Positions 32,893 to 50,761 of a DNA stretch of 64,000 nt are shown here, piece after piece. The first letter of the stretch is position 1; every line of letters starts with the position of its first letter. Source of the stretch: Pikeienuella piscinae (lineage in GTDB: Bacteria; Pseudomonadota; Alphaproteobacteria; Rhodobacterales; Rhodobacteraceae); contig NZ_CP049056.1 in the NCBI RefSeq assembly GCF_011044155.1, positions 3,848,001 through 3,912,000 of the forward strand. The letters are read 5' to 3'. The position numbers and the translations under genes are program-made. The notes under the pieces are model-generated. The model made no database searches. It was not told the DNA's origin and saw only the letters and a program-made list of their open reading frames with translations.

Positions 32893-32986
32893 GAATCCTC
32901 CATCGCTTTTCATGGCAGCCTTGCCAGATCGTCCAGGGAAAATCTATAGTGTTTAGGATACGAAATTTTGTCATGGAGGCCATAAA

Positions 32987-34686: not shown

Positions 34687-35475
34687 TCATTTTCCGCGAA
34701 AGACGGGCGGGCGCTTTTCGACAAAGGCGGCGACGCCCTCCTTGTAGTCGTCGCTCACCACCGCCTGCGCGCCGAGGGCGGCGATCTCCGCGTGTTCCGC
34801 CGGCGTCGGTTCCGGCTGCACCGCGCGGATCACCCGCTTGGCGCCGGCGATCGTAAGCGGCGCGGAGGCGCGCAATTCCTCGGCGCGCGCCTTCGCTTCC
34901 GCGACCGGATCCCCCGCGCAAATCTCCGAGAGCAGCCCCATTTCCAACGCCTCCGGCGCCGGGTGCCGGCGACCGGAAAAGAGCACGCTCTTCGCACGCT
35001 CGACGCCGACAGCTGCGACCAGCGCGCGCGTCTCCGCCACGCCATAGACGAGGCCGAGCTTCGCGGCGGGGATGCCGAGATAGGCGCTCGCGTCGCCGAT
35101 CCGGAAATCGCAGCAGAGCGCGAGCCCGCAGCCCCCGCCCATGGCCGCGCCGGAGATCGCGGCGAAAACCGCCTTCGGGCACTCGAGTATCGCCGTATTC
35201 GCCCGCTCGACCGTTTCCGAGTAGCGGCCGCCCGCCTCCGCGCCGGTGCGGGCGGCCGCGAATTCCTTGATGTCGGCCCCGGCGCAAAACGCCCCGCCCG
35301 CCCCGGTGAGGATCACCGCGCGGATCTCCGGCTCCGCCGAGAGCGTGAGGAACGCGTCGCCGAGCGCGCGCCACATCGCCAGCGTCATCGCGTTGCGCTG
35401 TGCGGGCCGGTCGATGGTCACGACTGCGATAGCCGGGTCGGATCGATCGACGACGATAGCGGCGGCGTCGGACAT
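34687..35475 (-). CDS. Enoyl-CoA hydratase/isomerase-family protein
   Basis: The 262-residue crotonase-fold protein has the oxyanion-hole segments AFCAGADIKEFAAA and GAAMGGGCGLALCCDFRIG, each in the expected place, plus IPAAKLGLVYG. The two catalytic Glu of true hydratases are not both obvious (GLVYGVAETRALV holds one candidate), so a different crotonase reaction is possible. Its start is 23 bases from a degenerate copy of the cluster operator at 35498-35513, which places it in the predicted UTRA regulon. Confidence 0.87.
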   Translation of the reverse strand: MSDAAAIVVDRSDPAIAVVTIDRPAQRNAMTLAMWRALGDAFLTLSAEPEIRAVILTGAGGAFCAGADIKEFAAARTGAEAGGRYSETVERANTAILECPKAVFAAISGAAMGGGCGLALCCDFRIGDASAYLGIPAAKLGLVYGVAETRALVAAVGVERAKSVLFSGRRHPAPEALEMGLLSEICAGDPVAEAKARAEELRASAPLTIAGAKRVIRAVQPEPTPAEHAEIAALGAQAVVSDDYKEGVAAFVEKRPPVFRGK

Positions 35476-35497
35476 GCGGGTCTCCTTCGGACGGCTG

Positions 35498-35513
35498 ATT
35501 TGTCCGTATCAAT
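35498..35513. promoter_or_regulatory. Degenerate copy of the cluster operator upstream of the enoyl-CoA hydratase gene
   Basis: ATTTGTCCGTATCAAT keeps 13 of 16 positions of the palindrome ATTTGTCCGGACAAAT found elsewhere in the cluster; the left half is intact and the right half is changed. It is 23 bases upstream of the hydratase ATG and 85 bases upstream of the small frame before the CaiB gene. A further isolated half (TTGTCCGTATCG) occurs at about 35750. Confidence 0.5.
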
Positions 35514-35597
35514 TGCAACATCATCCGGCGCGCGATAGCAAGGTTGCGCATGTTGCGCGCCGGCCGTCAGAGGCGCGGGACAGGAGGGAGAAGCGCC

Positions 35598-35816
35598 ATG
35601 TGGTCCAATCCCCGCATTCCCTTCCCGCTGGCGAGCGCGGACGTCCCCTCGCGCCGCCCGATCGTCGCCGAGATCGCGACCGACATCGAACACCAGTCTT
35701 TCGAGCGGCAAGCGCCGCCCGGTCGCCCGGCGGCGACGCTCACGTTGCTTGTCCGTATCGCCGGCGTCGCCGCGCTGGCCGTTTCTTCCGAAGGTTCACC
35801 ACAGGAGGGCGTATGA
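35598..35816 (+). CDS. Small leader frame of unknown function upstream of the CaiB gene (72 aa)
   Basis: An ATG at 35598 follows a strong ribosome site (AGGAGGGAG at 35582-35590). The 72-residue product MWSNPRIPFPLASADVPSR... has no family I recognise; RPIVAEIATDIEHQSFERQ looks like the edge of a folded protein. Its TGA (35814-35816) overlaps the start region of the CaiB gene. Either it is a real small protein coupled to the CaiB gene or the truncated remains of a longer one. Confidence 0.45.
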   Translation: MWSNPRIPFPLASADVPSRRPIVAEIATDIEHQSFERQAPPGRPAATLTLLVRIAGVAALAVSSEGSPQEGV

Positions 35817-36997
35817 TGACCTCGACCGCGCTTTCGCATCTTCGCGTTCTCGACCTCACGCGGGTGCGGGCCGGGCCGACCTGCTGCCGCGTCCTCGCGG
35901 ATTTCGGCGCCGACGTGATCAAGGTGGAGGCGCCGGCGGGGGTCGACCCGAACGCGGGGCTGGGCGGGCCGCGCGACAGCTCCGACATGCAGAACCTCCA
36001 TCGCTCGAAACGGTCGCTGACGCTCAATCTGAAGACCGCGGACGGGCTGGCGATCTTCCGGAAGCTGGCGGAGACCGCCGACGTGGTGGTGGAGAATTTC
36101 CGGCCCGACGTTAAGGACCGGCTGGGCGTCGGCTACGACGATCTCCGCGCGATCAATCCCCGGATCGTGCTCGCGTCGATCTCCGGGTTCGGCCAGACCG
36201 GCCCCTATGCTTCCCGCGCCGGCTACGATCAGATCGCGCAGGGCATGGGCGGGCTGATGGCCGTCACCGGCCTCCCCGGCCAGGGGCCGGTGCGCGCCGG
36301 GGCGGCGGTCGCGGATTCCGCCTCAGGCCTCTACGGTTGCCTCGGGATCCTCATCGCGCTGGCGGAGCGCGAGCGCTCCGGCGAAGGGCAATGGGTGCAG
36401 ACCTCGCTTCTGGAGGCGCAGATCGCGATGATGGATTTTCAGGCGGCGCGCTATCTGGTCGATGGCGTGACTCCGGGCCAGGCGGGGAACGATCATCCGG
36501 TCTCGACCCCGATGGGGGTGGTGGAGACCCTCGATGGCCATCTCAACCTGGCGGTTGGCGGCGACGGGCAGTGGCGGGCGCTCTGCGCGGCGTTGGAGAT
36601 GCCGGAACTCGGGGACGACGCGCGCTTCGCGACGGACAAGAAACGGCTGGAGAACCGGGAGGCCTGCTGGGCCGCGCTTCGGCCGGTCTTTCGCGCCCGC
36701 ACCACCGCCGAATGGATCGAGACGCTCGCCGCCGCTTCGGTGCCGGCCGGGCCGATCTACCGGATGGACGAGGTTTTCGCCGATCCGCAGGTTCGCCATC
36801 TCGGCATCGCCGCAAGCGTGCCCCATCCGACCCGTGGCGAGGTTCGGCTTGTCGGGCAGCCGGTGCGGCTTTCGCGGACACCGGCGGCGATCAGCGGGCC
36901 GGCGCCCGAGGCCGGAGCGGAGACCGAGGAGATTCTCGGGGGCCTGGGTTACGGGGCCGATGATATCGCCCGTCTTCGGGCGGCTGGCGCGGTGTGA
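35816..36997 (+). CDS. CaiB/BaiF-family CoA-transferase (first of cluster)
   Basis: I chose the second of two adjacent ATGs (35816) because AGGAGGG at 35803-35809 is then at a normal distance; 393 residues. Family blocks: LRVLDLTRVRAGPTCCRVLADFGADVIKVE, ENFRPDVKDRLGVGYDDL, SGFGQTGPYASRAGYDQIAQGMGG, and the catalytic Asp region QTSLLEAQIAMMDFQA, in which the usual Asp in V-x-x-S/A-L-x-D is replaced by Glu (SLLEAQI). It should transfer CoA to or from a carboxylic acid; the Asp-to-Glu reading depends on alignment. It lies in the cluster with the repeated operator. Confidence 0.9.
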   Translation: MTSTALSHLRVLDLTRVRAGPTCCRVLADFGADVIKVEAPAGVDPNAGLGGPRDSSDMQNLHRSKRSLTLNLKTADGLAIFRKLAETADVVVENFRPDVKDRLGVGYDDLRAINPRIVLASISGFGQTGPYASRAGYDQIAQGMGGLMAVTGLPGQGPVRAGAAVADSASGLYGCLGILIALAERERSGEGQWVQTSLLEAQIAMMDFQAARYLVDGVTPGQAGNDHPVSTPMGVVETLDGHLNLAVGGDGQWRALCAALEMPELGDDARFATDKKRLENREACWAALRPVFRARTTAEWIETLAAASVPAGPIYRMDEVFADPQVRHLGIAASVPHPTRGEVRLVGQPVRLSRTPAAISGPAPEAGAETEEILGGLGYGADDIARLRAAGAV

Positions 36998-37041
36998 GCC
37001 AGCGAGGAAGCGGCGCTTGACAGGCGGAGGCGGCCGGGTAG

Positions 37042-37057
37042 TCCTGTCCGGACAAAT
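37042..37057. promoter_or_regulatory. Cluster operator upstream of the second CaiB gene
   Basis: TCCTGTCCGGACAAAT matches 13 of 16 positions of the cluster palindrome, with the core TGTCCGGACA intact. A TTGACA at 37017-37022 could be a -35 element; the operator centre lies 32.5 bases after its first base, so it would cover the -10/+1 region, as expected for a repressor. The CaiB gene starts 177 bases downstream. Confidence 0.7.
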
Positions 37058-37233
37058 ACCGCGCGCCAGCGACGCCTGCTGAAGCGCCGATCGAAAAGAC
37101 GATCAGGAAACCGTCCGATGCGCTGCGCCCGCCGATCTGCTCTTCCTGCGCCCGCGACGCGGCCCGAGCGGGCGCTCCGTGTTGGGCGGCGGAAGTCGAG
37201 CGCCGGTTTGCGGGGTCGCAGGGCGGGCGCGCC

Positions 37234-38436
37234 ATGACCGGCCTGCCCCTCGACGGCGTTCGAGTCCTTTCCGTCGAGCAATACGGCGCGGGGCCGTTCG
37301 CGTCGCTCTATCTTGCGGACATGGGCGCGGAGGTGATCAAGATCGAACCCCCGACCGCGCCGGGCCGGCCCGGCGGCGACAGTTCGCGCCGGTCCGGGCC
37401 GCATTTCCTTGGCGAGGGCGACAGCCACTTCTTCCAGACCTTCAACCGCAACAAGCGCTCGCTCACGCTCGACCTGAAGCGGGCGGAGGGGCGGGAGATC
37501 CTGCATGCGCTTCTCCCCGGCGCCGACGCGGTGATGAACAATCTCCGGGGCGATCAGCCGGCGAAGCTTGGCGTCGACTACGACGCGCTCGGTGGGCTGA
37601 AACCAGCGATCGTCTGCGCGCATCTTTCGGCCTATGGCCGGACCGGCGCGCGGGCCGGCTGGCCGGGTTACGATTTCCTGATGCAAGCCGAAGCCGGGTA
37701 TCTCTCGTTGACCGGCGAGCCGGGCGCGCCGCCGGCGCGGATGGGGCTTTCGATCATCGACTACATGACCGGCGTGACCACCGCCTTCGCGCTGGTCGCC
37801 GCGCTTCTCGCCGCCGCGCGGACGGGGCGCGGGCGCGATGTCGACGTCTCGCTCTTCGACGTCGCGATGCATCAGCTTTCCTATCCCGCGACCTGGTATC
37901 TCAACGAAGGCGACGCGATCGGCCGGCGGCCGCGCTCCGGCCACCCTTCGGTCGTCCCCTGCGAGACGATGCCGACGAAGGACGGCTGGATCTTCGTCAT
38001 GTGCGTGCTGCCGAAATTCTGGGAGGGGCTGGCGGCGGCGCTCGGCCGCCCCGATCTGCCGCGGGATCCGCGCTTCGCCGACCCGGCGGGCCGGCTCGCC
38101 AACCGGGATGCGCTGATGGCGATTCTCGACCCGTTGACCAAGACGCGGACGACGGCGGAATGGATGGAGGTCTTCGCCGGAACGGTGCCTGCGGCGCCGG
38201 TGCTCGATTTCGGCGCGGCGCTCGACAATCCGTTCTTTCGCGAGCGGGGCGGCGTTCGGACGGTTCCGCATCCTGTGCGGCCCGGCTTCGGGATGGTGGC
38301 GAACCCGATCCGCGCCGGCGCGGCGCCGGACGACCGGCCGGCGCCCGCGCTCGGGGCGGACACCGACGCGCTCCTGCGCGAGATCGGCGTCGCGCCGGCG
38401 CGCATCCGCGCGCTCCGCGCCGCCGGCGTGATCTGA
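37234..38436 (+). CDS. CaiB/BaiF-family CoA-transferase (second of cluster)
   Basis: The 400-residue protein has VRVLSVEQYGAGPFASLYLADMGAEVIKIE at the start, FFQTFNRNKRSLTLDLK, HLSAYGRTGARAGWPGYDFLMQAEAGY and the catalytic VDVSLFDVAMHQLSY with the expected Asp (LFD). It belongs to class III CoA-transferases. Two such enzymes in a row, both with an operator nearby, suggest either a two-acid pathway or two partners of one reaction. The substrate is not known. Confidence 0.92.
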   Translation: MTGLPLDGVRVLSVEQYGAGPFASLYLADMGAEVIKIEPPTAPGRPGGDSSRRSGPHFLGEGDSHFFQTFNRNKRSLTLDLKRAEGREILHALLPGADAVMNNLRGDQPAKLGVDYDALGGLKPAIVCAHLSAYGRTGARAGWPGYDFLMQAEAGYLSLTGEPGAPPARMGLSIIDYMTGVTTAFALVAALLAAARTGRGRDVDVSLFDVAMHQLSYPATWYLNEGDAIGRRPRSGHPSVVPCETMPTKDGWIFVMCVLPKFWEGLAAALGRPDLPRDPRFADPAGRLANRDALMAILDPLTKTRTTAEWMEVFAGTVPAAPVLDFGAALDNPFFRERGGVRTVPHPVRPGFGMVANPIRAGAAPDDRPAPALGADTDALLREIGVAPARIRALRAAGVI

Positions 38437-38586
38437 GGGGGCGGGCGACGCGAAACTCGACACTGCGCGCCGTCCCGATCCCGCGCCGCCGGGTCTCGGC
38501 CGACGCGCCGTCGAAGCCCTGCGCGAAGCGGGATGTTGGGAGCAGGAGACCGAGGCGGCGTTGAAAGCGGCGCGAAAAGGTTGGAG

Positions 38587-39333
38587 TCAGCTCTCCTCCG
38601 CGTCGTCCCGCTTGAAGCGCATGAAATAGGTGAATCTCTCCGCCGGATGCCAGTCGATCGAAACGATCAGCGGCCGGTCGGCGTCATCGAGATAGCGCCC
38701 GGTCACGCGGATCGCCATCGCGCCCGGCGCCGCGCCGAGGGCGGCGCCGGCGTCGGCCGGGAAAGGCTCTGCCGCGATCTTTCGCGTCACCTCGACGATA
38801 TTCGCGCCGTAGCGCGCCTCCAGCATCCGGTGGACCGGCGCGGAGAGCCCGGGCAGGTCGGGCGCCGCCGCGAGATAATCCTCGTGGAGATAGATTCGGG
38901 AGAAATTGATCGGGTCGCCGTCGCGCGCGCGGCGCACACCTTCTGAGATCAGCCAGGAACGGCCGGGCGGACGGCCCAGAAACGCGGCGAGTTCTGCGTC
39001 CGCCTCGACGATCCTGATGTTCTCGAGCGTGAGCCGCGTATCCGCGCCGTATCCGAAAAGCTCGCTCAGGGAGCGCACGCCGAGATGGTAGCCGCCACGC
39101 GGGTCGGCCGAGATCACCTCGGATCCGGAACCCTGCCGGCGGCGCAGATAGCGACGCGAAGAGAGAAGTCGCAGCGCCTCTCGGATGGTGAAGCGCGAAA
39201 CCCCGAATTCGGAGCAGAGTTCCTGCTCGCTCGGAAGCGACGAGCCGACGGGGTAGACGCCCCGCTCGACCCGTTCGATCAGCGTCTCCGCCAGATGCCG
39301 GTATCTCGGCTTGCCCGCGCTCTGATCCTTCAT
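38587..39333 (-). CDS. GntR-family (HutC-type) regulator with UTRA domain
   Basis: I chose the ATG at 39333 (248 residues); the frame is open further but that part overlaps the neighbouring gene. The N-terminal winged helix reads LIERVERGVYPVGSSLPSEQELCSEFGVSRFTIREALRLLSSRRYLRRRQGSGS, in register with HutC-type repressors. The C-terminal UTRA domain (about residues 90-240) contains PINFSRIYLHEDYL and a YLDDADRPLIVSIDWHPAERFTY end. HutC-type proteins bind palindromes of the form TTGT-N4-ACAA, matching the repeated 16-bp palindrome in this cluster, so it is the likely regulator. Confidence 0.9.
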   Translation of the reverse strand: MKDQSAGKPRYRHLAETLIERVERGVYPVGSSLPSEQELCSEFGVSRFTIREALRLLSSRRYLRRRQGSGSEVISADPRGGYHLGVRSLSELFGYGADTRLTLENIRIVEADAELAAFLGRPPGRSWLISEGVRRARDGDPINFSRIYLHEDYLAAAPDLPGLSAPVHRMLEARYGANIVEVTRKIAAEPFPADAGAALGAAPGAMAIRVTGRYLDDADRPLIVSIDWHPAERFTYFMRFKRDDAEES

Positions 39334-39365
39334 CAGCGGCCCTTCCCTGACGTCGTTCCCGCGCC

Positions 39366-40610
39366 TTACATCGCCCGGCGCGCCGCGTCCCAGGCGTTCG
39401 CCAGTTCGTCGCGATGCTCGGGCGCCGCGATCCCGATAAGCGCGGCGGCCCGCGCGTCGATGTCGAGCCCGCCGATATCGGCGACCCCGTGCTCCGTCAC
39501 CACGATCCCGGTATCCGCGCGCAGGATGGAGGCCGGCGCGGCGGCGTCGAGCATGGGGACGATGCGGCTGGTCCCCGCCCGGCCCGCGGTCGCCGGCAGC
39601 GCGAGGATCGCCCGCCCGCCCTTCGACGCGCGTCCGCCGCGCTGGAAATCCGCCGCTCCGCCGATGCCGGAGACCTGCCGCCCCGCCAGCGTCTCGCAAC
39701 TCGCCTGGCCGAAAAGATCGACCGAGAGCGCCGAGCCGATGGCGATGAAGCGCGGAATCGCCGCCAGTCGGGCGGCGTCATGCGTGACCGATACCGGCGC
39801 GAAGCGGATCACCGGATCGCGCCGCAGCCGCTCGTAAAGCGCGGGCGAGCCTATCGCGAAGCCTGCGGTGACGCCTTTCGTCAGAACCCCGGCGTCGATC
39901 AGCGCCGCCGCGCCGTCGGTTATCATCCCCGCGTGATAGCCGAGGTCGCGGTGATCCTTCAGCGCCGCGAGAACAGCGTCGGCGGCTTTGCCGATGCCGA
40001 TGCTGACGATGTCGCCAGGCCGGATCATCGCCGCGATCCGCGCCGCGATCGTCTCCAGCGCCGCGCCGGCCGCGCCGCCCTCGAGGCGGGGGAGGGGGGT
40101 CTCCGCCTCGATCAGGGCGGCGAAGCGCCCGACAGGCGCGCGCGGGGCCGAGGGCGGCGCCGGCATCGCCGGGTTGACCTGCCCGATCAGCACTGCGCCG
40201 GAGGCCTCGAGCGCATCGAAGAAATCGCAGGCGACGCCCGGCGTCACCATGCCCGCTTCGGGGGGCGAGATCTGCATCACCGCGCCTTTCAGCCCGGCGG
40301 CGTCCCGCGCCCAGCCGGGGATATGGCAGTAATGGCTCGGATGAAGGCGCACGCGCCCGGCGGCGAAACCGTCCCGGAGCGCCGGTGTGACGAAGAAGGC
40401 GCGCGCGGTCGCCTCCGGCGCCAGCGCCGAGGGGTCGCGCCGGTTCACGCCGGGAATCCAGACGCCGCAAAACTCCAGCCCGCGCCCGATTCCCGGATCC
40501 GCCGCGAGCGCGTCGAGCGCCGCCGTCGGCTCGCCGGTCGCGCCCGCGATCCAGACGCGGTCGCCCGGGCCGAACATCCGGAACGCTTCGGCGAAACCCT
40601 TGCTCACCAT
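39366..40610 (-). CDS. Acetyl-CoA hydrolase/4-hydroxybutyrate CoA-transferase-like protein
   Basis: I chose the ATG at 40610 (414 residues), preceded by GGGGAG. The family blocks include PGDRVWIAGATGEPTAALDAL, HYCHIPGW, QISPPEAGMVTPGVACDF and GIGKAADAVLAALKDHRDLGYHAGMITDGAAALIDAG; the Glu expected to form the CoA-thioester intermediate is not certain without alignment. The C-terminal ILRADTGIVVTEHGVADIGGLDIDARA is typical of the AbfT/Cat1 group. It would make or recycle a CoA thioester. It is 32 bases upstream of the UTRA regulator and under an operator at 40677. Confidence 0.87.
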   Translation of the reverse strand: MVSKGFAEAFRMFGPGDRVWIAGATGEPTAALDALAADPGIGRGLEFCGVWIPGVNRRDPSALAPEATARAFFVTPALRDGFAAGRVRLHPSHYCHIPGWARDAAGLKGAVMQISPPEAGMVTPGVACDFFDALEASGAVLIGQVNPAMPAPPSAPRAPVGRFAALIEAETPLPRLEGGAAGAALETIAARIAAMIRPGDIVSIGIGKAADAVLAALKDHRDLGYHAGMITDGAAALIDAGVLTKGVTAGFAIGSPALYERLRRDPVIRFAPVSVTHDAARLAAIPRFIAIGSALSVDLFGQASCETLAGRQVSGIGGAADFQRGGRASKGGRAILALPATAGRAGTSRIVPMLDAAAPASILRADTGIVVTEHGVADIGGLDIDARAAALIGIAAPEHRDELANAWDAARRAM

Positions 40611-40676
40611 TCTCAACTCCCCTTCGCCGCGTTTTCCCGCGGGGGCGCCGGTGCGCCCCGTGAAACCGATGCTAGA

Positions 40677-40692
40677 ATATGTCCGGACAAAT
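40677..40692. promoter_or_regulatory. Cluster operator upstream of the AbfT-like gene
   Basis: ATATGTCCGGACAAAT differs from the perfect palindrome at one base. On the minus strand it falls in the spacer of a plausible promoter: TTGGGA, 17 bases, TATTCT. It is 67 bases upstream of the gene and would block RNA polymerase when bound. Confidence 0.75.
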
Positions 40693-40860
40693 CGCATCCC
40701 AAATCAGACATACGGGTGCGTGAAAGCGTCGCCCGTCTTCTGAACCGACGCTTCCGCAGCGCGCCGAGGGCGCGTCAACCCGGCGGGAATGTGCGCCGTT
40801 CAGGCGTCCAGCGCCGCGCGCGTCCGGTCAGCGGGCGGTTGGGCGCGACTCGCCCGACGC

Positions 40861-41799
40861 TCATGAGACCGTTCCGAACCGCCGAAGGCGGGCGAAGAGC
40901 GGTCGCATCAGGAGTGGCGCGAAATAGATCGGCAATTGCGCGGTGATGACGACGAGCGCGATGCGCGGCTCCACCGCGCCGAGGACCGCCGCCACCATCA
41001 CCGCCATGTTCTTGACGCAGGCGCAGAGCCCGGCGGCGAAGGCCTCGTCCCGCCCCGTCCGCCAGAAGGCCGCAACGCCGAGCAGGAGCGACCCGGCGCT
41101 GACCGCGGCGGTGAGCGCGAAGATGCCGAACCATGACGCCGGATCGGCCCGCAGCGCGATACCGATATCATGCATGACACCGATGCTGATGAGGACGACG
41201 AGGGCGACAGTGGCCGCGTCGAGCGGAACCGCCCAGGTCCTGACCCGCGCGTCGCCGGCGACGCGCCTGAGAAGAAGCGCGAAGGCGAAGGCGCCGAGAA
41301 TGATCGCCGAAAGCCGGATGACGAGCGCGCTGACATCGACCCCTTCGCCCAGTCCCGGCGCGGCGCTGGTCACCAGCCAGACCGTCGCCGGCGCCATCAG
41401 CGTCGCCGGTAGCGACACCCCGGTGGCGAGCGCCGGATCGATCCGGACGAGAATCGCGAAAGCGGCGGCCGAACTCAGCGGCGGCGCGGCGGCGGCGTAG
41501 GTGAGCCCCGTGGCGAGCCAGCCCGGCGCGCCGAACGCCCAGGCCAGCAGGGCGACCGCCAGCGGCAGGACGATCAGAGCGAAGAGCCCGGTCACACAGA
41601 CGAAAAGCGGCCGCCGCAGCACGGCGACCAGCCGCGTCGGCTCGATCCGCAGCATCGAGATCACCACCATCGCGACCGAAATCGCGACGACCGCCGGGCG
41701 TACGAACTCCGCCAGCGCCGGCGCCGCGAGACCGAGCGCGACCCCGCCCGCCATCAGGAACGGGGCCTGGGCCGTCATCAGATTCATGACAGCGCGCAT
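40861..41799 (-). CDS. BASS-family (bile acid:Na+ symporter-like) transporter
   Basis: The 312-residue protein has about nine hydrophobic helices and the BASS topology, with FAILVRIDPALATGVSLPATLMAP and GLCACVKNMAVMVAAVLGAV being the two crossover-type regions. The family takes up organic anions with sodium. It is in the operator-linked cluster and follows the small frame at 41803 with three bases between, so it is probably an importer for a pathway substrate. Confidence 0.87.
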   Translation of the reverse strand: MRAVMNLMTAQAPFLMAGGVALGLAAPALAEFVRPAVVAISVAMVVISMLRIEPTRLVAVLRRPLFVCVTGLFALIVLPLAVALLAWAFGAPGWLATGLTYAAAAPPLSSAAAFAILVRIDPALATGVSLPATLMAPATVWLVTSAAPGLGEGVDVSALVIRLSAIILGAFAFALLLRRVAGDARVRTWAVPLDAATVALVVLISIGVMHDIGIALRADPASWFGIFALTAAVSAGSLLLGVAAFWRTGRDEAFAAGLCACVKNMAVMVAAVLGAVEPRIALVVITAQLPIYFAPLLMRPLFARLRRFGTVS

Positions 41800-41802
41800 C
41801 GA

Positions 41803-42066
41803 TCAGGACCCCGCCGGAACGCGGGCGGCGAAACCCGCGCCGATCGTCCGGCGTGTCGCGATGCGGGCGCCTTCCGCCGCCGCGACATGGGCGAGGAAAG
41901 CATCCGGCGCGCCGGTCCGTCCCGGGCGGCCGGCGATCCCCGGCCACAGTCCGGCCGACATCGCCTTCGGCGCCGCACGGACGGTTTCCGTCCTCTTCCT
42001 GTCGCCCTCGGCGCCGCTCATCCCTGAGCGTTCCTCGCCATCGGGCCAGGACAGGTCGTCAGTCAT
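41803..42066 (-). CDS. Small hypothetical protein before the BASS transporter (87 aa)
   Basis: The 87-residue frame starts at an ATG 24 bases downstream of the perfect operator and ends 3 bases before the BASS gene. It has a hydrophilic N-terminus and an Ala/Arg-rich end (FLAHVAAAEGARIATRRTIG). No family is recognised. Position relative to the operator and the tight spacing are the main evidence; it could be a spurious frame in a leader. Confidence 0.4.
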   Translation of the reverse strand: MTDDLSWPDGEERSGMSGAEGDRKRTETVRAAPKAMSAGLWPGIAGRPGRTGAPDAFLAHVAAAEGARIATRRTIGAGFAARVPAGS

Positions 42067-42089
42067 CCGCGCGCTTCCCGCATCCGCTG

Positions 42090-42105
42090 ATTTGTCCGGA
42101 CAAAT
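42090..42105. promoter_or_regulatory. Perfect 16-bp operator palindrome upstream of the BASS operon
   Basis: ATTTGTCCGGACAAAT is a perfect palindrome. On the minus strand a TTGACA (42130 down to 42125) lies with its first base 32.5 bases from the palindrome centre, exactly the spacing seen at the second CaiB promoter. The two promoters share GCTTGACAGGCG upstream. The site is also 38 bases from the stop of the TRAP permease gene. Confidence 0.85.
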
Positions 42106-42142
42106 TGAAGAGGCGGCCCGCGCCTGTCAAGCGGCGTCGCCT

Positions 42143-44044
42143 TCAGCCGCCGCCGCTTCGGGAGAACGCCCGTTCGCCCTTCGGCTGGCGCAGCCTGAAG
42201 AGCCAGAGAAGCGCGAAGAGGAGGCATCCGGCGGCGTTGAGCCAGATCGCGCCGGAGATCACGCCATGCGGCAGCAAAACCACGAGGCCCGAGAGCGCCG
42301 CGACCGCGCGCTCCCGGCCAGAAAGCGAACGGCCGAGGAACCCGACGATCCCCGCGGTCACGAGATAGACGCCGGCTAGCGCCGTCGCGAGGGTGAGGCC
42401 GATGTCGAGCGGCGGCCCGTCGAGCAGCAGCGCCGGCGAGGCGGCGAAGAGAAACGGGATGAGATAGGCCGGCCAGGCGATCCTGACCGCCTCCCAGCCC
42501 GTGGCCATCGGGCTCGCCCCGGCCATGTTCGCCGCCACAAAGGCGGCGATGGCGACCGGCGGCGTCAGCATCGAGAGCATGCCGAAATAGAGAACGAAAA
42601 GATGCGCCGCCATCGGTTGCAGCCCTAGCTCGACCAGCGGCGGCGCGGCGAGCGACGCCAGGAGAAGATAGACCCCGACCGTCGGCAGCCCCATGCCCAT
42701 CACGATGCAGACCGCCGCGGTGACGCAGAGAAGAAGAAGGAGGCTGGATTTCCCGAGTTGGACGAGAAAGAAACCGAGCCCGAAGGAAAGCCCCGACCGG
42801 GCGATCAGCCCGATGATCATTCCGGCGATGGCGCAGATCAGGATGATCTCAACCGCCGATTTTCCCGCCGCGACCAGCACTTCGCCGACCGTCCGGAGGG
42901 TGATGCGCCGCCCGTCATAGGTGTGAAGGAGGGCGAGCGCGAAAAGAACGAGGATCGCGATCAGCGCCGCCGTTTCAGGCCGAAGATTGAAACGGAAGAG
43001 CCCGATCAGAAGCGCCGCGAAGGGCGCGAAAACCACCCAGCCGCGTCGAAGCACGCCGGCGAGCGCCGGAATCCGGCTTTCCTCGACGCGCGCGATGCCG
43101 CGGCGTCCGGCCTCCAGATCCGCGAAGATGAAGAGGCTGAGATAATAGAGCAGCGACGGCGCCGCGGCCGCCAGCATCACTTCGGTGTAGCTGGCCTGAA
43201 GGTTCTCGGCGAGGAGGAACGCCGCCGCGCCCATGATCGGCGGCATCAGCTGCCCGCCGGTCGACGCCGCGGCCTCGATCGCCCCGGCGGTCCTGGCGCT
43301 GTAGCCGCCCTTCTTCATCATCGGGATGGTGATCGCGCCGGTGGAGGCGACATTCGCGACCGCGCTGCCGGACACCGAGCCGAAAAACGCCGAGCCGAGG
43401 ATCGCGATCTTGCCCGCGCCGCCGCGTTTGCGCCCGGCCAGAGCCAGCGAGAGATCGGAAAAGCAGAGCGACCCCCCCGTCGCGGTCAGAAGCTGGGAAA
43501 GGATCAGGAACGGAACGACCACCGCGACCGCGATGGAGAGCGCCGCGCCGGCGAGCGAGGCGCTGTCGAGGATGAGAAAGGTCAGCAACCGGTCGGGCGC
43601 GATCGCCCGGCTCTGGAGCGGGCCGGAAAACTTGTCGGCGAAGAGCGCGTAGAGGCAGACGCAGCCGAGAATGATGATCAGGCTCCACCCCATCGTCCTG
43701 CGCACCGCGTCGATAAGCAGGACGAAGCCGATGATGGAGACGATCAGCGCCTCGACCGGATGATAGAAGACGTTCTCGGAAAGAATAGTGAAGCGCGCCG
43801 CCAGCCAGCCGCCGAAGATCAGCGACGCCGCCGCGCACGCCGCCGAGATGAGCGGCGCGCGCCCCGGCCGCGTCAGGAAGGCGATGGCCATCGCCAGCGC
43901 CAGCGCGACAATCAGCACCTGTTCGGAATAGAGCCGCCAGCCGATCCAGAGCGGGGCGCCCGACGACCAGAAAATGGCGACGACCGCGGTGAGCCCGGCG
44001 AGCAGGGCGGCGATGGCCGCCCCGCCGCCCGTGCGCGCCGTCAT
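42143..44044 (-). CDS. TRAP transporter fused permease (TAXI type, DctQM fusion)
   Basis: I chose the ATG at 44044 (633 residues); the longer frame overlaps the binding-protein gene. It is a very hydrophobic protein with roughly 16 helices, including the DctM signature region GSVSGSAVANVASTGAITIPMMKKGGYSARTAGAIEAAASTGGQLMPPIMGAAAFLLAENL. Fused small and large subunits are typical when the binding protein is of the TAXI kind, as here. It should import an organic acid with sodium. It is downstream of the TAXI gene with 34 bases between. Confidence 0.93.
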   Translation of the reverse strand: MTARTGGGAAIAALLAGLTAVVAIFWSSGAPLWIGWRLYSEQVLIVALALAMAIAFLTRPGRAPLISAACAAASLIFGGWLAARFTILSENVFYHPVEALIVSIIGFVLLIDAVRRTMGWSLIIILGCVCLYALFADKFSGPLQSRAIAPDRLLTFLILDSASLAGAALSIAVAVVVPFLILSQLLTATGGSLCFSDLSLALAGRKRGGAGKIAILGSAFFGSVSGSAVANVASTGAITIPMMKKGGYSARTAGAIEAAASTGGQLMPPIMGAAAFLLAENLQASYTEVMLAAAAPSLLYYLSLFIFADLEAGRRGIARVEESRIPALAGVLRRGWVVFAPFAALLIGLFRFNLRPETAALIAILVLFALALLHTYDGRRITLRTVGEVLVAAGKSAVEIILICAIAGMIIGLIARSGLSFGLGFFLVQLGKSSLLLLLCVTAAVCIVMGMGLPTVGVYLLLASLAAPPLVELGLQPMAAHLFVLYFGMLSMLTPPVAIAAFVAANMAGASPMATGWEAVRIAWPAYLIPFLFAASPALLLDGPPLDIGLTLATALAGVYLVTAGIVGFLGRSLSGRERAVAALSGLVVLLPHGVISGAIWLNAAGCLLFALLWLFRLRQPKGERAFSRSGGG

Positions 44045-44078
44045 CGCCGGCGCGCCTTCGCGGCGCCCATTCGGACGA

Positions 44079-45026
44079 TCATTCGGCCCAGACGCCCATC
44101 TCCTTGTAGAACCTGATCGCGCCCGGGTGATATTCGACGCCGAGATCCTTGCCCATCCGCTCCCTTGCGAAGCCGCTCCAGACCGGCCCCTGCGCGACAA
44201 GATCGGCTTGCTTCTCCCAGAGCGCCTTGGTCGCCGCGTAGACCATATCGTCCGAGACATCCTTGCCGGCGAAAAGCGTATAGTCGAAGACGTTCACGTT
44301 GGTCGGCTCGTCGATGCCCGGTATTTTCGCGTCCGGGCCGACTTCGGCGAGGTAGCTCTGGGGCATGTATTCGTTCATGCGCGCGACTGCTTCCGGGCTA
44401 TCTTCGAACGAGAGGTATCGGATGCCGAAGCTGGCGTCGTATTCGCGGCTGTTGCCGGCCCCGACGACGACGATGGCGACATCGACGGACCCCTCGGCGA
44501 AGGCCGCCCACATCCGCGGGAAGTTCGGCACCGCGACGCCCTCGACCCCGTCGAGCCCGAGCCCGGCGTTGGCGAAATAGCCGCGCGTCACGTAATCGCC
44601 GAGCGCGCGCTCCGCGAATACCGGCACGCGCTTGCCTTCGAGATCGGCGATCGTCTCGATGCCGCTGTCGCGGCGCACGACATAGGCGTTCCGGAACGGC
44701 ATCAGCGTCGCGACCATCCGCAGATTGGGGTTCGGCCGGCCCTCCGACATGCCGGTTCCCGAGACGGCGTAGCCGAGCTGAACGATGTTCGAGATGCCGA
44801 ACTCCATCTCGCCGGCGTTCACCAGCGGAATGTAGTCGGCGGTGTTGGCCAGCTCCTGCGGCCGCATCTGGAGATCCGAAGCCTCCGAGATCGCGGCGGC
44901 GAGCGAGCGGCCGACCTGGCTGGTGCCGCCCTTCTGGGTCGAGCCGAGGGCGGCGACCTCAGCCGCGACCGGCCCGGCCGACAGCACGGCGGCGAGCGCG
45001 GCGGCGATCAATCCTGTGTAACGCAT
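44079..45026 (-). CDS. TAXI-family TRAP solute-binding protein
   Basis: I chose the ATG at 45026 (315 residues), which gives a signal peptide ending AGPVAA; GGGAGAC lies upstream. The TAXI fold is shown by ALGSTQKGGTSQVGRSLAAAIS near the start, PLVNAGEMEFGISN, and NLRMVATLMPFRNAYVVRRDSGI. It binds the substrate in the periplasm and hands it to the fused permease encoded next. It follows the racemase-like gene by 25 bases, so the three form one operon. Confidence 0.92.
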   Translation of the reverse strand: MRYTGLIAAALAAVLSAGPVAAEVAALGSTQKGGTSQVGRSLAAAISEASDLQMRPQELANTADYIPLVNAGEMEFGISNIVQLGYAVSGTGMSEGRPNPNLRMVATLMPFRNAYVVRRDSGIETIADLEGKRVPVFAERALGDYVTRGYFANAGLGLDGVEGVAVPNFPRMWAAFAEGSVDVAIVVVGAGNSREYDASFGIRYLSFEDSPEAVARMNEYMPQSYLAEVGPDAKIPGIDEPTNVNVFDYTLFAGKDVSDDMVYAATKALWEKQADLVAQGPVWSGFARERMGKDLGVEYHPGAIRFYKEMGVWAE

Positions 45027-45051
45027 TTCAGAAGTCTCCCTGTCTTGTTTC

Positions 45052-45798
45052 TTAGTGTCTCTCGAAGAGCGGTCCGTGACCTTTGAACTGGTCCCTGACG
45101 CCCATCGCCCGCAGCGCATGCCAGTAGGTCGCGGCGTTGATGGCGATGAAGGGCTTGCCGTATTCGGCCTCCAGCTCGAGGCAGAGCGACACCATCGAGA
45201 GATTGGTGCCGACCTGGACGAAAGCGTCGATATCGTCGCCATCCATTTCCGCGACATGGGCGCGAAGCTCCTCCGGCTGAACCTCGGCGATGGCGACCGG
45301 GCTGGCGCATTTCAGGCCGCGAAAGCGCGCGACCTCGAAGCCGCAATCCTGGAAGAACCGGGTCACGTTCCGGTCGGATATCGGGAAATACGGCGAGATC
45401 ACCGCGATCCGCTTGGCCCCTGTCAGGTTCAACGCCGCCTCGCAGGCGAAGGAGCCGGCGGAAACGCCGAGCCCGCAACGCTCGGAAAGCTCCTGCATCC
45501 GTTTTTCGGAGGCCGCGCGCCCGTCCCAGAACATCAGCGCCGACATGCCCATGATCAGATAATCCGGCTGGCAGGTGAGGCAGCGGTCGACGGCGTCGTT
45601 CAGCGTGCTGCCGATCGCCTCCACCAGAGCGACGAAATCCTCGTCATTGCCGACCTTCATGTTCGGCACGTAGATGCGGCCGAAGTGATTGGTGACGCCC
45701 TCGACGCGCAGATCGTCCATATCCGGCTGCACGATGGTGTTCGTCGACGGCGCCACTACGGCGAATTTGCAGCGCCATCCGCGCGCGTCTCTGGACAT
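45052..45798 (-). CDS. Asp/Glu racemase superfamily protein (maleate isomerase/arylmalonate decarboxylase type)
   Basis: The 248-residue protein has VVAPSTNTIVQPDMDDL near residue 14 (substrate-carboxylate-binding Asn as in maleate isomerase), MGMSALMFWDG at about residue 82, CGLGVSAGSFACEAA and VQVGTNLSM at about 200. In characterised family members the segments corresponding to MGMSAL and VGTNLS carry one or two catalytic Cys; here both positions appear to be non-Cys (Ser and Gly/Thr). It may therefore be a decarboxylase-like or binding variant. It leads the operon with the TAXI-TRAP importer, so its substrate is likely the imported acid. Confidence 0.8.
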   Translation of the reverse strand: MSRDARGWRCKFAVVAPSTNTIVQPDMDDLRVEGVTNHFGRIYVPNMKVGNDEDFVALVEAIGSTLNDAVDRCLTCQPDYLIMGMSALMFWDGRAASEKRMQELSERCGLGVSAGSFACEAALNLTGAKRIAVISPYFPISDRNVTRFFQDCGFEVARFRGLKCASPVAIAEVQPEELRAHVAEMDGDDIDAFVQVGTNLSMVSLCLELEAEYGKPFIAINAATYWHALRAMGVRDQFKGHGPLFERH

Positions 45799-45860
45799 GG
45801 GCTACTCCCTTCGTCGAACATCGGTCGTCACAACACAATGCTTTCAGGCGGCCGTCAAGA

Positions 45861-45876
45861 ATTTGTCTGGACAACT
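45861..45876. promoter_or_regulatory. Cluster operator upstream of the racemase-TRAP operon
   Basis: ATTTGTCTGGACAACT matches the cluster palindrome except for two positions (T at position 8 and C near the end). It is 63 bases upstream of the racemase-like gene. A minus-strand TTGACG lies between it and the gene. It is 62 bases from the copy at 45923, about six helical turns. Confidence 0.7.
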
Positions 45877-45922
45877 CGCCATGCGGTTGACCGGGCGCGG
45901 CGGTGGAACCTATGCATCGTCG

Positions 45923-45938
45923 TCCTGTATGGACAAAT
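45923..45938. promoter_or_regulatory. Second cluster operator copy at the head of a gene remnant
   Basis: TCCTGTATGGACAAAT keeps the right half of the palindrome and most of the left. It overlaps the ATG of the remnant at 45929. With the copy at 45861 it brackets the divergent start region. Confidence 0.5.
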
Positions 45939-46051
45939 TCACCACGAAGGGAAACATCCTGGCCGGCCCGCGGCACCGAAGCATGATCGCAGCGGGCGAG
46001 CTTGTCATTGCGCCGGGGGGCTTCGACATGATCTCGACGCCGCCCGGCTGA
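45929..46051 (+). pseudogene. N-terminal remnant of an isocitrate lyase/PEP mutase-family gene
   Basis: An ATG at 45929 opens 40 codons ending in TGA at 46049-46051. The piece RSMIAAGELVIAPGGFDMIS matches the first strand of the ICL/PEPM barrel (usual pattern: LL-x-x-PG-VYDALSAR). After this point the sequence is the end of the convergent monooxygenase gene, so more than 200 codons of the barrel are missing. The gene was probably cut off by a deletion that joined it to the monooxygenase gene. The operator copy at its head suggests the original was part of the regulon. Confidence 0.6.
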
Positions 46052-46058
46052 ACCGGGT

Positions 46059-47249
46059 TCAGGCCACGGCCTCCAGATCGCGGAGCGACTGGATCATCGA
46101 GGAGCGCATGACGTAGGCGAAATGACGCTTCGGGTCGTCCACGGTCGCGCGAAGATCGTCATGGAAGGCGCGGCGCTTCGCCGGATCGGCCTCATTCAGC
46201 ATGGCGCGGTTTCTGAGCGCCTGCGCCTGCACCGTCTCGATCGCCACCTTGCGGCGCTGGCGCTCATAGCGCCCGAGCGTCTCGATCGGCGCGCCGCGCC
46301 AGACTTCGGCCAGCCGCGCGGAAAGATTCACCGCGTCATGGATGCCGCCGTTCATCCCCATGCCGCCCAGCGGGTTGTTGAGATGGGCGGCGTCCCCGGC
46401 GAGAAAGATCCGGCCGTGGATGTATTTCTCCGCCACCCGCTCATGCACGCGATAGGCGGTCTTGTGCGCGATTTCGTAGGGCGCCCCCGGCAGGACCGCC
46501 TGCATCCGCCGCTCGATGAAATCCGGATCTAGGATCGCCGCGTCGCTCAGGCCGGGATCGGTGGGGAAGAGCACCCGCCAGAGCGTCGGCGTGCGCAGCA
46601 GCACCAGCCATTCCTCCGGGTCGGAGATGTAGCTGATGTCCGCAAGGCCGTCGATCGCCAGATCGTAGCGGAAGGGCGTCGAGAGCGAGAGGAATATCTC
46701 CGGGATCGTCATGCCCTCGAAGGCGACGCCGGTCGCCCGGCGCACGGCGGAGCGCGCGCCGTCGGCGCCGATCAGGTAACGCGCGCGGAATGTCTCCGCG
46801 GCGCCGTCGGTCCGCCGCGCGGTCACTTCGACGCGGTCGGCGTTCTGCGTCGCGTTCTCGACCACGATATCGGTGATCAGCGCCGCGTTCGGGTCCGCCT
46901 CCAGCCGGGCGCGCGCGGCTTCGGTCAGCTTCCACTGCTCGCACTGGAGCCGGTAGGGATGGTCGGTCTCCGACGCCAGAAGGCCGAGATCGAATGTCGC
47001 GATCTCGCCCTCCTTCCGGTCGCGGAATTGCCAGTAGGGGCATTTGCGGCCGCGTTCGATCAGCCCGTCGGCCAGGCCGAGACGGCTGAGAAAGTCCAGC
47101 GTGGGCGGATGAAACGTCGAGGCGCGCAGATCGACCGCAAGGTCGGACGACGCCTCCAGCACCGTCACCGGCACGCCCTCTTCGAGAAGCGACACCGCCG
47201 CCACCAGACCGACCGGGCCGGCGCCCGCGATCAGCACACCCTTTTCCAT
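46059..47249 (-). CDS. FAD-dependent aromatic-ring-type monooxygenase
   Basis: I chose the ATG at 47249 (396 residues). The FAD-binding motif VLIAGAGPVGLVAAVSLLEEG is at the N-terminus, the ARYLIGADGARSAVRRATG (DG motif) is in the middle and GRIFLAGDAAHLNNPLGGMGMNGGIHDAVNL is the second FAD (GD) motif. This is the PHBH/MhpA group, which hydroxylates aromatic or heteroaromatic acids with NAD(P)H. It is divergent from the SDR with an operator between them. Converges with the PEP-mutase remnant. Confidence 0.9.
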   Translation of the reverse strand: MEKGVLIAGAGPVGLVAAVSLLEEGVPVTVLEASSDLAVDLRASTFHPPTLDFLSRLGLADGLIERGRKCPYWQFRDRKEGEIATFDLGLLASETDHPYRLQCEQWKLTEAARARLEADPNAALITDIVVENATQNADRVEVTARRTDGAAETFRARYLIGADGARSAVRRATGVAFEGMTIPEIFLSLSTPFRYDLAIDGLADISYISDPEEWLVLLRTPTLWRVLFPTDPGLSDAAILDPDFIERRMQAVLPGAPYEIAHKTAYRVHERVAEKYIHGRIFLAGDAAHLNNPLGGMGMNGGIHDAVNLSARLAEVWRGAPIETLGRYERQRRKVAIETVQAQALRNRAMLNEADPAKRRAFHDDLRATVDDPKRHFAYVMRSSMIQSLRDLEAVA

Positions 47250-47312
47250 ATCGCTCGCCCGCTGCTTCCGCTCGATTGCGAAGGTATCGGCGGCCCGGCT
47301 CCGGTCAAGGGT

Positions 47313-47328
47313 ATTTGTCTGGACAAAT
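47313..47328. promoter_or_regulatory. Cluster operator between the divergent monooxygenase and SDR genes
   Basis: ATTTGTCTGGACAAAT is the cluster palindrome with one base off perfect symmetry. It is 64 bases from the monooxygenase start (minus strand) and 52 bases from the SDR start (plus strand), so one bound dimer could control both. Confidence 0.8.
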
Positions 47329-47379
47329 CCGCGCGAAATTCCAGAATACGCCGATGCGCGCGACAGAGGCGGAAACGAG

Positions 47380-48213
47380 ATGAACGACGCTTCCCTCAAC
47401 GGCCGGGCCGTTCTGGTCACCGGCGGAACCCGCGGCCTCGGGCGCGTGATGGCCCGCGCGCTGGCGGGGGCCGGCGCGCGCGTCGCGATCACCGGCGTTT
47501 CGGACTCCGCCCGGCTTCGCCGCGCTGCGGGCGAACTCTCTGCGGCGGGCGCCGGCGACAGTCTGGCCATCGCGGCCGACGCCGCGGACCCCGATCAGGC
47601 CGCGATGGCGGTGGAGCGGACGAACGCCGCCTTCGGCCGAATCGACGTACTGGTGAATAACGCCGGGCTTGGAATGCGGCTGGTTTCGGAGAGGTTCAAC
47701 CTTGAACCGGCGAAGTTCTGGACCGCGCCGCCCGCGTCCTGGGCGCGGATCGTCGGCGCGAATGTCAACGGCCCGTTCTTCACCGCTCGCGCGGCGGCGC
47801 CGCTGATGATCGCTCAGGGCTTCGGCAAGATCGTCAATATCTCGACCTCGGCGCAGACGATGGTGCGGACCGGCTATTCGCCCTACGGGCCCAGCAAGGC
47901 GTTCCTCGAAGCGGCGAGCCGCGCCTGGGCGGCCGACCTCGCGGGCGCCGGCGTCGACGTCAATGTCCTGCTGCCCGGCGGCGCGACCGACACTGACCTG
48001 TTGCCGCCTTCGCCGAAAAAGCGCGGCGCGGACGGCAACCTACTGGATCCGCGGATCATGCGGGCGCCGATCCTCTGGCTCGCCTCTGACGCCTCGAACG
48101 GCGTCACCGGCGGGCGCTTCATCGCGCGGCTCTGGCCCGACGCGCCGCCCTATCCCGGCGCGGCGCGAGACGCCGCGCCAGCCGATGAAGCCGCGCCGCC
48201 GCGGATCATGTAG
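47380..48213 (+). CDS. Short-chain dehydrogenase/reductase
   Basis: The 277-residue protein has the cofactor motif VLVTGGTRGLGRVMARAL (TGxxxGxG) at about residue 12, LVNNAGLG (NNAG) at about 90, ISTSAQ with the catalytic Ser, and YGPSKAFLE (YxxxK). It oxidises or reduces an alcohol/ketone with NAD(P). The last 30 residues are Ala/Pro-rich. It overlaps the end of the convergent cysteine hydrolase by eight bases, which is a little unusual. Confidence 0.9.
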   Translation: MNDASLNGRAVLVTGGTRGLGRVMARALAGAGARVAITGVSDSARLRRAAGELSAAGAGDSLAIAADAADPDQAAMAVERTNAAFGRIDVLVNNAGLGMRLVSERFNLEPAKFWTAPPASWARIVGANVNGPFFTARAAAPLMIAQGFGKIVNISTSAQTMVRTGYSPYGPSKAFLEAASRAWAADLAGAGVDVNVLLPGGATDTDLLPPSPKKRGADGNLLDPRIMRAPILWLASDASNGVTGGRFIARLWPDAPPYPGAARDAAPADEAAPPRIM

Positions 48214-48847
48214 CGGCGCACGTCTCCATATAAGCGCTCGCCTCTCCGGTGGTGACGAGATCGGCGTATTTCGCGCTCATGTCGAAGAGATTGGCCTCAT
48301 GCGGGCCGGGTTCGCGGTCGCCGCACGCCTCTTTCGCGATCAGGGTCACGAAACCGGACGAGATGCTGTCGATACAGGTCGCGCGGACGCAGCCGGAGGT
48401 GGTGAGGCCGCCGATGATGAGGGTGTCGACCTTCATGAACTGGAGCGTCGCGGCGAGCGACGTGCCGAAAAACGCGCTTGGGTATTGCTTGGTGATCATC
48501 AGGTCGCCCGGCCCGACGCTCAGCCCTTCGACCAGCCTTTGCGTGTCTTTCCCGGCTTCGAGATAGGCGAGCGCCGGCACCTTCGCGTAGAACGCGCCGC
48601 CATCCGCGCCGCCGGGCTGGTATTTCACCTCGGTGAAAATGACCGGCGCGCCGGCCGCGCGGGCGGCGGCGGCCAGCTGAATCGCATGGCCGAGCGCCGC
48701 GCGGCATCCCTCGCCGCCGAAAAGCGGCGAACTCTCCTCGAAATAGGCGCGCGCGAAATCGACCAGGACCACCGCCGGACGGGCGCCCCAGCGCTGACGC
48801 GCGTGATATCCGGCCCGCGCGTAATTCTCTTCCAGGGTCTCGTTCAT
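48206..48847 (-). CDS. Isochorismatase-family cysteine hydrolase (maleamate amidase/N-carbamoylsarcosine amidase-like)
   Basis: The 213-residue protein has the catalytic triad of the family: Asp in AVVLVDFARAYF, Lys in LMITKQYPSAFFGT and Cys in IIGGLTTSGCVRATCIDSISSGF, followed by EACGDREPGPHEANLFDMSAKYADL. The PSAFFGT, TSGCVRAT and DMSAKYAD blocks are as in N-carbamoylsarcosine amidase and the maleamate amidase NicF. It would cleave an amide or carbamoyl group. It sits next to a FAD monooxygenase and a maleate-isomerase-superfamily gene, a combination of families known from nicotinate breakdown. Confidence 0.88.
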   Translation of the reverse strand: MNETLEENYARAGYHARQRWGARPAVVLVDFARAYFEESSPLFGGEGCRAALGHAIQLAAAARAAGAPVIFTEVKYQPGGADGGAFYAKVPALAYLEAGKDTQRLVEGLSVGPGDLMITKQYPSAFFGTSLAATLQFMKVDTLIIGGLTTSGCVRATCIDSISSGFVTLIAKEACGDREPGPHEANLFDMSAKYADLVTTGEASAYMETCAAT

Positions 48848-50709: not shown

Positions 50710-50761
50710 GTCACGGTCCTTCGGGCGAAGCGCGGGCGGCGCGCGCCGCCCGCGTTGCGGT

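Follow-up and report, generated by a model that had tools for sequence, protein, structure and literature searches.

The question raised by positions 34687-48847 of a 64,000-nucleotide stretch of the Pikeienuella piscinae genome (contig NZ_CP049056.1, positions 3,848,001 to 3,912,000; this whole stretch is called the window here) is whether the importers, CoA-transferases and putative ring- and amide-processing enzymes encoded there belong to one catabolic system and, if so, what that system degrades. The original prediction had seen in them an undescribed-looking regulon for an imported acid or amide and had drawn an analogy with nicotinate breakdown. We found that the cluster consists of two conserved modules, A and B, merged under one operator. 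Module A is made up here of a FAD monooxygenase (FMO), an SDR, a Cys-free protein of the maleate-isomerase/arylmalonate decarboxylase (AMDase) fold (MI), a TAXI-TRAP importer and a flanking isochorismatase-family amidase (ISO), and module B of a GntR regulator, a class-I CoA-transferase, a BASS symporter, a CaiB-type CoA-transferase and a crotonase. That the whole forms a single GntR-UTRA regulon degrading an imported N-heterocyclic or cyclic-imide carboxylic acid, by the route proposed below, has in our judgement about an even chance of being right. Gene identities were taken from NCBIfam and Pfam scans of the window proteins, the host genome being one 4.37-Mb contig. The scans recovered the crotonase, FAD monooxygenase, SDR, maleate-isomerase-superfamily protein and maleamate-amidase-like hydrolase named in the original prediction, as well as its three CoA-transferases, two of them CaiB-type (PF02515) and one class-I (PF13336). 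A fourth CoA-transferase (CaiA) and an HMG-CoA-lyase family enzyme (HMGL), at 31672-33886 and outside the coordinates covered by that prediction, were statistically linked to the system.

The evidence for a common regulon comes from the palindrome ATTTGTCYGGACAAAT, present in six copies in the window versus 0.05 expected, with just three weak 3-mismatch sites in the rest of the 4.37-Mb genome. As the six copies are confined to the cluster, they indicate a true local regulon of the GntR-UTRA protein encoded at 38587, and the word regulon in the original prediction is thus supported. The operators, two of the six half-degenerate, lie 22 to 302 bp upstream of the crotonase, the second CaiB-type CoA-transferase (CaiC), the class-I CoA-transferase, the BASS gene, MI and the divergent FMO/SDR pair (operators are listed without strand):

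35498-35513: degenerate operator, left half perfect, in the divergent gap between the crotonase and CaiB genes; the half-site is 22 bp upstream of the crotonase
37042-37057: operator, right half perfect, upstream of CaiC
40677-40692: operator, 66 bp upstream of the class-I CoA-transferase/UTRA operon
42090-42105: perfect operator, upstream of BASS
45861-45876: operator, 62 bp upstream of MI; position kept in relatives
47313-47328: operator between the divergent FMO (63 bp) and SDR (51 bp) genes; position kept in relatives
38587-39333, minus strand: GntR-UTRA regulator (PF00392 and PF07702)

The conservation of module A was then followed outside the host. Its genes in the window are:

42143-44044, minus strand: fused TRAP permease of the TAXI system (TIGR02123 above cut-off), conserved in module A
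44079-45026, minus strand: TAXI solute-binding protein (TIGR02122 above cut-off)
45052-45798, minus strand: MI, Cys-free maleate-isomerase/AMDase-fold protein (AlphaFold model and family alignment)
46059-47249, minus strand: FMO, FAD monooxygenase of PnpA/HspB type (PF01494, FAD_binding_3)
47380-48213, plus strand: SDR dehydrogenase (PF00106)
48206-48847, minus strand: ISO, amidohydrolase of the N-carbamoylsarcosine amidase/maleamate amidase group (PF00857)

A scan of genome contigs with MI as the query gave 80 loci (handles in L; genomes in G). In L025-L048 and L064, whose hosts are for the most part marine alphaproteobacteria, Rhodobacteraceae among them, MI is found together with FMO, a GntR-UTRA regulator, an enzyme of the methylisocitrate-lyase/PEP (phosphoenolpyruvate)-mutase superfamily, SDRs and ISO; the importer is either TAXI-TRAP or a branched-chain-amino-acid-type ABC system with a PuuE-like hydrolase, closest to PuuE allantoinase, and the parts vary by locus. 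Open reading frames in relatives were called mechanically (longest frame, GC-position bias, conservation), a procedure by which small genes may be missed. The exact 12-bp core of the operator was found in 23 of the 24 loci L025-L048, with one mismatch in L046, as a rule in the gaps between FMO and SDR and between lyase and MI. FMO and MI, with most module A families, are also annotated on plasmid records of Thioclava and Novosphingobium. Among 246 genomes of the host's order, with presence set at an identity of at least 49% for FMO, 48% for MI and 75% for CaiA, FMO and MI occurred in the same 8 genomes (Fisher p 3e-14; the genomes are related, so that this value is indicative), one further genome having FMO only, at 49%. 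The conserved co-occurrence that the original prediction had proposed as a check is therefore found.

FMO has a FAD_binding_3 domain with GxGxxG and GD motifs and full-length similarity to the PnpA/HspB type, its best PDB matches being PnpA (E 1.6e-64) and HspB (E 1.8e-46); NicC was not named among the structure matches at E<=1e-10. Orthologues of the SDR in the closest module A loci show 65-68% identity. ISO matched best the N-carbamoylsarcosine amidohydrolase 26st (E 1.6e-45), and also the putative isochorismatase 3ot4 (E 2.6e-37), which we take to be of the NicF group; its isochorismatase domain carries the catalytic Cys motif TTSGCVRAT in the alignment to 26st. The gene has no operator of its own, and we assign it to the system because it is syntenic with, and convergent to, the SDR gene in relatives. 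The two above-cut-off TAXI matches bear out the TAXI-TRAP importer of the original prediction. Such an importer suggests an acid as substrate; one characterised TAXI protein binds glutamate (PMC11574862).

The AlphaFold model of MI (pLDDT 92.5) has the Nocardia maleate isomerase as its nearest fold, with a template modelling (TM) score of about 0.85 (0.84-0.86 to 2xec/2xed). Both catalytic cysteines of that enzyme, C76 and C194, are replaced in MI, by G84 and V196, and the family alignment shows G84 in 87 of 87 rows and V196 in 82 of 87. The earlier remark that the protein seems to lack the catalytic Cys holds for both sites. Since P17, S86, Y137, G197, T198 and N199 vary little or not at all, the family is under constraint and MI is probably an enzyme. 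AMDases are defined by the proton donor C188, by G74, and by the dioxyanion hole T75/S76, Y126 and G189 (PMC4996985). In MI, G84 matches the glycine that AMDase has in place of the second Cys, and S86, Y137 and G197, at dioxyanion-hole positions, are invariant; MI departs from the AMDase definition at C188, replaced by V196, and at T75, replaced by M85. Elsewhere in the family, some sphingomonad-type paralogues retain one Cys at the second site, and at four loci (L066, L068, L071, L080) a further MI paralogue adjoining FMO has one Cys (QCGTNL) where AMDase has C188. The Thioclava locus L105 has an additional Cys-bearing copy of the Asp/Glu-racemase family. An MI homologue (40%) also lies within a nonribosomal peptide synthetase (NRPS)/IucA-IucC siderophore-type cluster on a Leisingera plasmid (L111), a location which implies that the wider family is used outside the present catabolic setting too.

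How module A came under the regulator of module B may be read from the 260-bp gap between FMO and MI, where relatives carry an intact lyase gene and a GntR gene. The host retains there 38 codons:

45926-46039, plus strand: N-terminal remnant of a gene of the methylisocitrate-lyase/PEP-mutase superfamily (45% identity over 38 aa by tblastn, E 1.5e-5)

No copy of the lyase was found in the host genome at E<=1e-10. The relatives' enzymes are nearest to the carboxyphosphonoenolpyruvate-mutase and methylisocitrate-lyase types. In the tree, the GntR-UTRA protein at 38587 groups with the module B regulators (support 100/98). In the simplest history, module A's own GntR gene and most of its lyase gene were deleted in the host, and the module B regulator, using the same operator, took over control of both modules. 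Neither the module merger nor the loss of the lyase had been seen in the original prediction.

The genes of module B other than the regulator, together with the type III CoA-transferase B that lies among them, are:

34687-35475, minus strand: crotonase/enoyl-CoA hydratase (PF00378)
35813-36997, plus strand: type III (CaiB) CoA-transferase B (PF02515)
37234-38436, plus strand: type III CoA-transferase C, CaiC (PF02515); its module B orthologues in G018 and G021 are 63-67% identical
39366-40610, minus strand: class-I CoA-transferase of the acetyl-CoA hydrolase/transferase family (PF13336)
40861-41799, minus strand: BASS-fold sodium symporter (fold match to ASBT), with a 67% orthologue in module B of G021

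The BASS protein had no Pfam match even at E<=1; its AlphaFold model (pLDDT 78.7) nevertheless superposed on ASBT-type bile-acid symporters with TM 0.82-0.85, the ASBT/NTCP fold, so that the earlier BASS call was right despite the absent Pfam match. The perfect operator lies some 300 bp upstream of the annotated start of BASS (41800-42142); in so long a leader, a further start or a decayed gene may be hidden. In G021, G018 and G133, relatives of the UTRA regulator, class-I CoA-transferase, CaiC, BASS and crotonase form all or part of a second cluster, again with this operator, and relatives of the class-I CoA-transferase adjoin a UTRA gene in 5 of the 246 genomes, host included. In relatives, module B adds MmgE/PrpD, an acyl-CoA dehydrogenase, a PuuE-like hydrolase, an amidase and enzymes resembling RipB/Ich and RipC/Ccl, the last two with scores below the curated equivalog cut-offs. 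RipB hydrates itaconyl-CoA and RipC cleaves citramalyl-CoA. Both the RipB hydratase and the RipC lyase are absent from the window cluster, and the host genome has only distant homologues of them elsewhere.

Next to module B lie the genes of a third group:

31672-32892, minus strand: CaiA, type III CoA-transferase of module C (PF02515)
32987-33886, plus strand: HMGL, HMG-CoA-lyase family enzyme (NF004283 above cut-off), adjoining CaiA in the relatives examined
33883-34578, plus strand: GntF1, GntR-FCD regulator of the CaiA-HMGL module (PF07729 and PF00392), syntenic in G021, G044, G124, G145 and G193

CaiA was present in 9 of the 246 genomes, and 6 of these 9 had MI and FMO (Fisher p 8e-9). Among the MI/FMO genomes, CaiA-HMGL is present in each of the five that lack a close lyase, the lyase in the two that lack CaiA, and both in G124. 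HyuA and HyuB, identified by Pfam, accompany ISO in 7 loci, 6 of which also have CaiA-HMGL; in L041 and L043 the CaiA orthologue and HMGL are separated by the shared operator; and in Tistrella the order is operator, cupin, unknown, MI, GntR, CoA-transferase, HMGL, NIPSNAP, ISO. On the grounds of this co-occurrence, the HyuAB-ISO linkage, the L041 and L043 operators and the Tistrella order, CaiA and HMGL were counted in. CaiA probably activates the dicarboxylate and HMGL is a candidate (alkyl)malyl/citramalyl-CoA lyase; by family, the pair resembles the Chloroflexus CaiB and HMGL-type pair.

Some other loci combine these families differently. L160 (G036) holds two groups within 20 kb, CaiA-HMGL-GntR-PuuE-like-amidase and GntR-HMGL-CaiB-LeuC/LeuD-like-Cys-bearing racemase-family protein-isochorismatase-FMO (45%), a natural experiment joining parts of the system. 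The gammaproteobacterial (Pseudomonadales) loci L070, L072, L077, L082 and L085 carry an MI homologue with aconitase-family LeuC/LeuD-like subunits, CaiB, HMGL, an aldehyde dehydrogenase, LysR and a DUF4437 cupin, and probably represent a sister pathway that begins differently in its first step. In the host, an operon at 48935-53928 encodes a citryl-CoA-lyase-like protein (NF004868 above cut-off), a PaaK-like ligase and DctPQM, with a divergent FCD-type GntR gene. In the gap before that GntR gene stands TTGTC-G-GACAA, in which the half-sites of the regulon are brought one base nearer to each other, so that cross-talk between operon and regulon is possible. As the 48935-54786 region has an FCD regulator to itself and is without a regulon operator, we left it out of the system.

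The gene identities, folds, operators, module structure, co-occurrence and lyase loss are direct observations; every chemical step of the route, and the order of the steps, we infer. The substrate would enter through the TAXI-TRAP importer and the BASS symporter. The PnpA/HspB-type FMO would hydroxylate the ring, probably displacing a substituent, and the SDR would oxidise the product towards a cyclic imide or lactam. A ring-opening hydrolase, supplied in trans or unnecessary in the host and not in the regulon, would break a C-N bond of the ring to give a half-amide; relatives offer as candidates the PuuE-like hydrolase or HyuAB, the latter found with ISO and CaiA-HMGL. ISO would then free ammonia, leaving an unsaturated dicarboxylate of the alkyl-maleate, mesaconate or itaconate kind, on which MI may act by hydration or a double-bond shift, without a covalent Cys mechanism. 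The CoA-transferases would form a thioester, the crotonase would hydrate it, and an HMGL-type enzyme would cut the (alkyl)malyl/citramalyl-CoA into an acyl-CoA and a 2-oxoacid, a cut that in relatives the methylisocitrate-lyase-type enzyme would make without CoA. The variant pathway for an imported acid or amide that had been suggested fits such a conserved, coherent gene set.

Several points weigh against this route. The weakest link is that the regulon is without an imide-opening hydrolase, the genome having only distant PuuE-like (33-36%) and HyuB-like (28-33%) homologues. ISO has no operator and may be read together with the DctMQP operon. In the host genome CaiA-HMGL is without a regulon operator and comes with an FCD regulator of its own. 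From its active site, none of the known reactions would be predicted for MI. Modules A and B are separate in relatives and may therefore serve different but related substrates.

Taken further, this last point becomes the proposal that two or three unrelated pathways, with modules A and B for different compounds, are joined just by a common GntR palindrome. The modules do lie apart in G021 and G018, the window GntR falls in the module B clade, and module B is rare. However, the two modules share one operator, MI or CaiA is also present in 4 of the 5 genomes that have the module B CoA-transferase, PuuE-like hydrolases occur in both modules among relatives, and both modules suggest cleavage of an alkylmalyl/citramalyl type; we regard the proposal as unlikely. 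Rather less likely is a hydantoin/N-carbamoyl amino-acid pathway, in which PuuE or HyuAB would open a hydantoin, ISO would be an N-carbamoylsarcosine-type amidase and MI a hydantoin-racemase relic. The best PDB match of ISO, the PuuE-like protein nearest PuuE allantoinase and the HyuAB linkage agree with it, but the racemase requires two acid/base Cys where MI has none, maleate isomerases are nearer in fold, and there is no role in it for the CoA-transferases, HMGL or methylisocitrate-lyase-type enzymes, nor a need for FMO.

A long shot is a widespread marine pathway for alkylated pyrrole/maleimide compounds (methyl-alkyl-maleimides, hematinic acid) from chlorophyll, heme and bilin breakdown. 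FMO and SDR would make or process a maleimide, an imidase and ISO would convert it to an alkylmaleate, MI would hydrate this in a new activity, and the lyase or the CaiB-HMGL pair would cut the alkylmalate into pyruvate and a short acid; if true, this would be an unrecognised route recycling pigment nitrogen. A little more doubtful still is the breakdown of a para-substituted phenol to a quinol by p-nitrophenol-like ipso-hydroxylation. PnpA is the best solved relative of FMO, but neither the window nor those neighbourhoods of relatives that were read showed a recognisable quinone reductase or hydroquinone ring-cleavage dioxygenase, and a conserved amidase and cyclic-amide hydrolases accompany FMO. 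Least probable of all is a nicotinate-like maleamate pathway of the NicC-NicF-NicE type ending in fumarate, which would account for FMO, the maleamate-amidase-like ISO and the maleate-isomerase-fold MI being found together, but FMO is nearest PnpA/HspB, the MI family is without both Cys, the conserved lyases (the relatives' methylisocitrate-lyase-type enzyme or the CaiB-HMGL pair) are superfluous for fumarate, and no ring-cleaving dioxygenase, NicX-type included, or NicD-type hydrolase was recognised in the scanned window genes or the relatives' neighbourhoods read, no NicX profile having been run genome-wide. The nicotinate analogy of the original prediction is thus weak, as FMO is PnpA/HspB-like and no ring-cleaving dioxygenase was seen; its broader view of a coherent, conserved carboxylate/N-heterocycle system stood.

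Among other candidates, vitamin B6 (MHPCO-type) and caffeine/urate routes were dropped because FMO is nearest PnpA/HspB, and the ectoine route because EutA matched MI weakly, at 54.8 bits (cut-off 318). Homarine catabolism gave no gene-level match in the literature searched.

The literature searched yielded no published description of the gene set, nor anything on maleate isomerase/isochorismatase/TRAP, AMDase or hydantoinase/isochorismatase/CoA-transferase clusters. The system is thus apparently undescribed, as had been proposed: a variant catabolic system for an N-heterocyclic or imide acid, conserved among relatives and combined here with a second module that depends on CoA. The monooxygenase-amidase-lyase set with its own operator occurs in marine alphaproteobacteria (Rhodobacterales, a SAR116 bin and uncultured single-cell genomes); some sphingomonads, Rhizobiales and Burkholderiales have related sets. 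Since no such pathway is described in the literature searched, a common dissolved nitrogenous compound may be missing among the known bacterial substrates. MI represents a Cys-free clade of the maleate-isomerase fold without a known reaction, two steps appear to be served by interchangeable enzymes (PuuE-like or HyuAB; an isocitrate-lyase (ICL)-type lyase or CaiB with HMGL), and the locus offers a visible case of two regulons merging once a deletion removes one regulator.

Of the known systems, itaconate degradation (RipABC/Ict-Ich-Ccl) resembles module B of the relatives, where RipB/Ich- and RipC/Ccl-like enzymes lie beside the class-I CoA-transferase; it differs in that the relatives' scores fall below the equivalog cut-offs and that the window keeps only the CoA-transferases and the crotonase. 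(R)-citramalate CoA-transferase (EC 2.8.3.20) and (R)-citramalyl-CoA lyase (EC 4.1.3.46) are known reactions (PMC8307300), and are those proposed for CaiA-HMGL, whereas here the putative pair is linked to an N-heterocycle cluster. AMDases share with MI the superfamily and adjoining tripartite (TTT/TRAP) or ABC transporters (PMC4996985), but the defining C188 and T75 are V196 and M85 in MI. The bacterial nicotinate/nicotine maleamate route (NicC/HspB-NicX-NicD-NicF-NicE) has in common an HspB-like monooxygenase, a NicF-group amidase and a NicE-fold protein; here, in contrast, no dioxygenase or deformylase was seen, MI is Cys-free, and a lyase or CoA-dependent C-C cleavage is added. Finally, the hxn nicotinate pathway of Aspergillus nidulans does without a ring-cleaving dioxygenase, relying on FAD monooxygenases together with a dehydrogenase, an amide hydrolase and a cyclic imide hydrolase related to PuuE-type enzymes (PMC9304392). 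Its proteins are different (HxnN is a fatty acid amide hydrolase (FAAH)-type amidase), it includes an alkene reductase and ends in alpha-hydroxyglutarate, and it is without a lyase, a CoA-transferase or a maleate-isomerase-fold protein. The fungal route is a precedent for combining monooxygenases, a dehydrogenase, an imide hydrolase and an amidase with no such dioxygenase.

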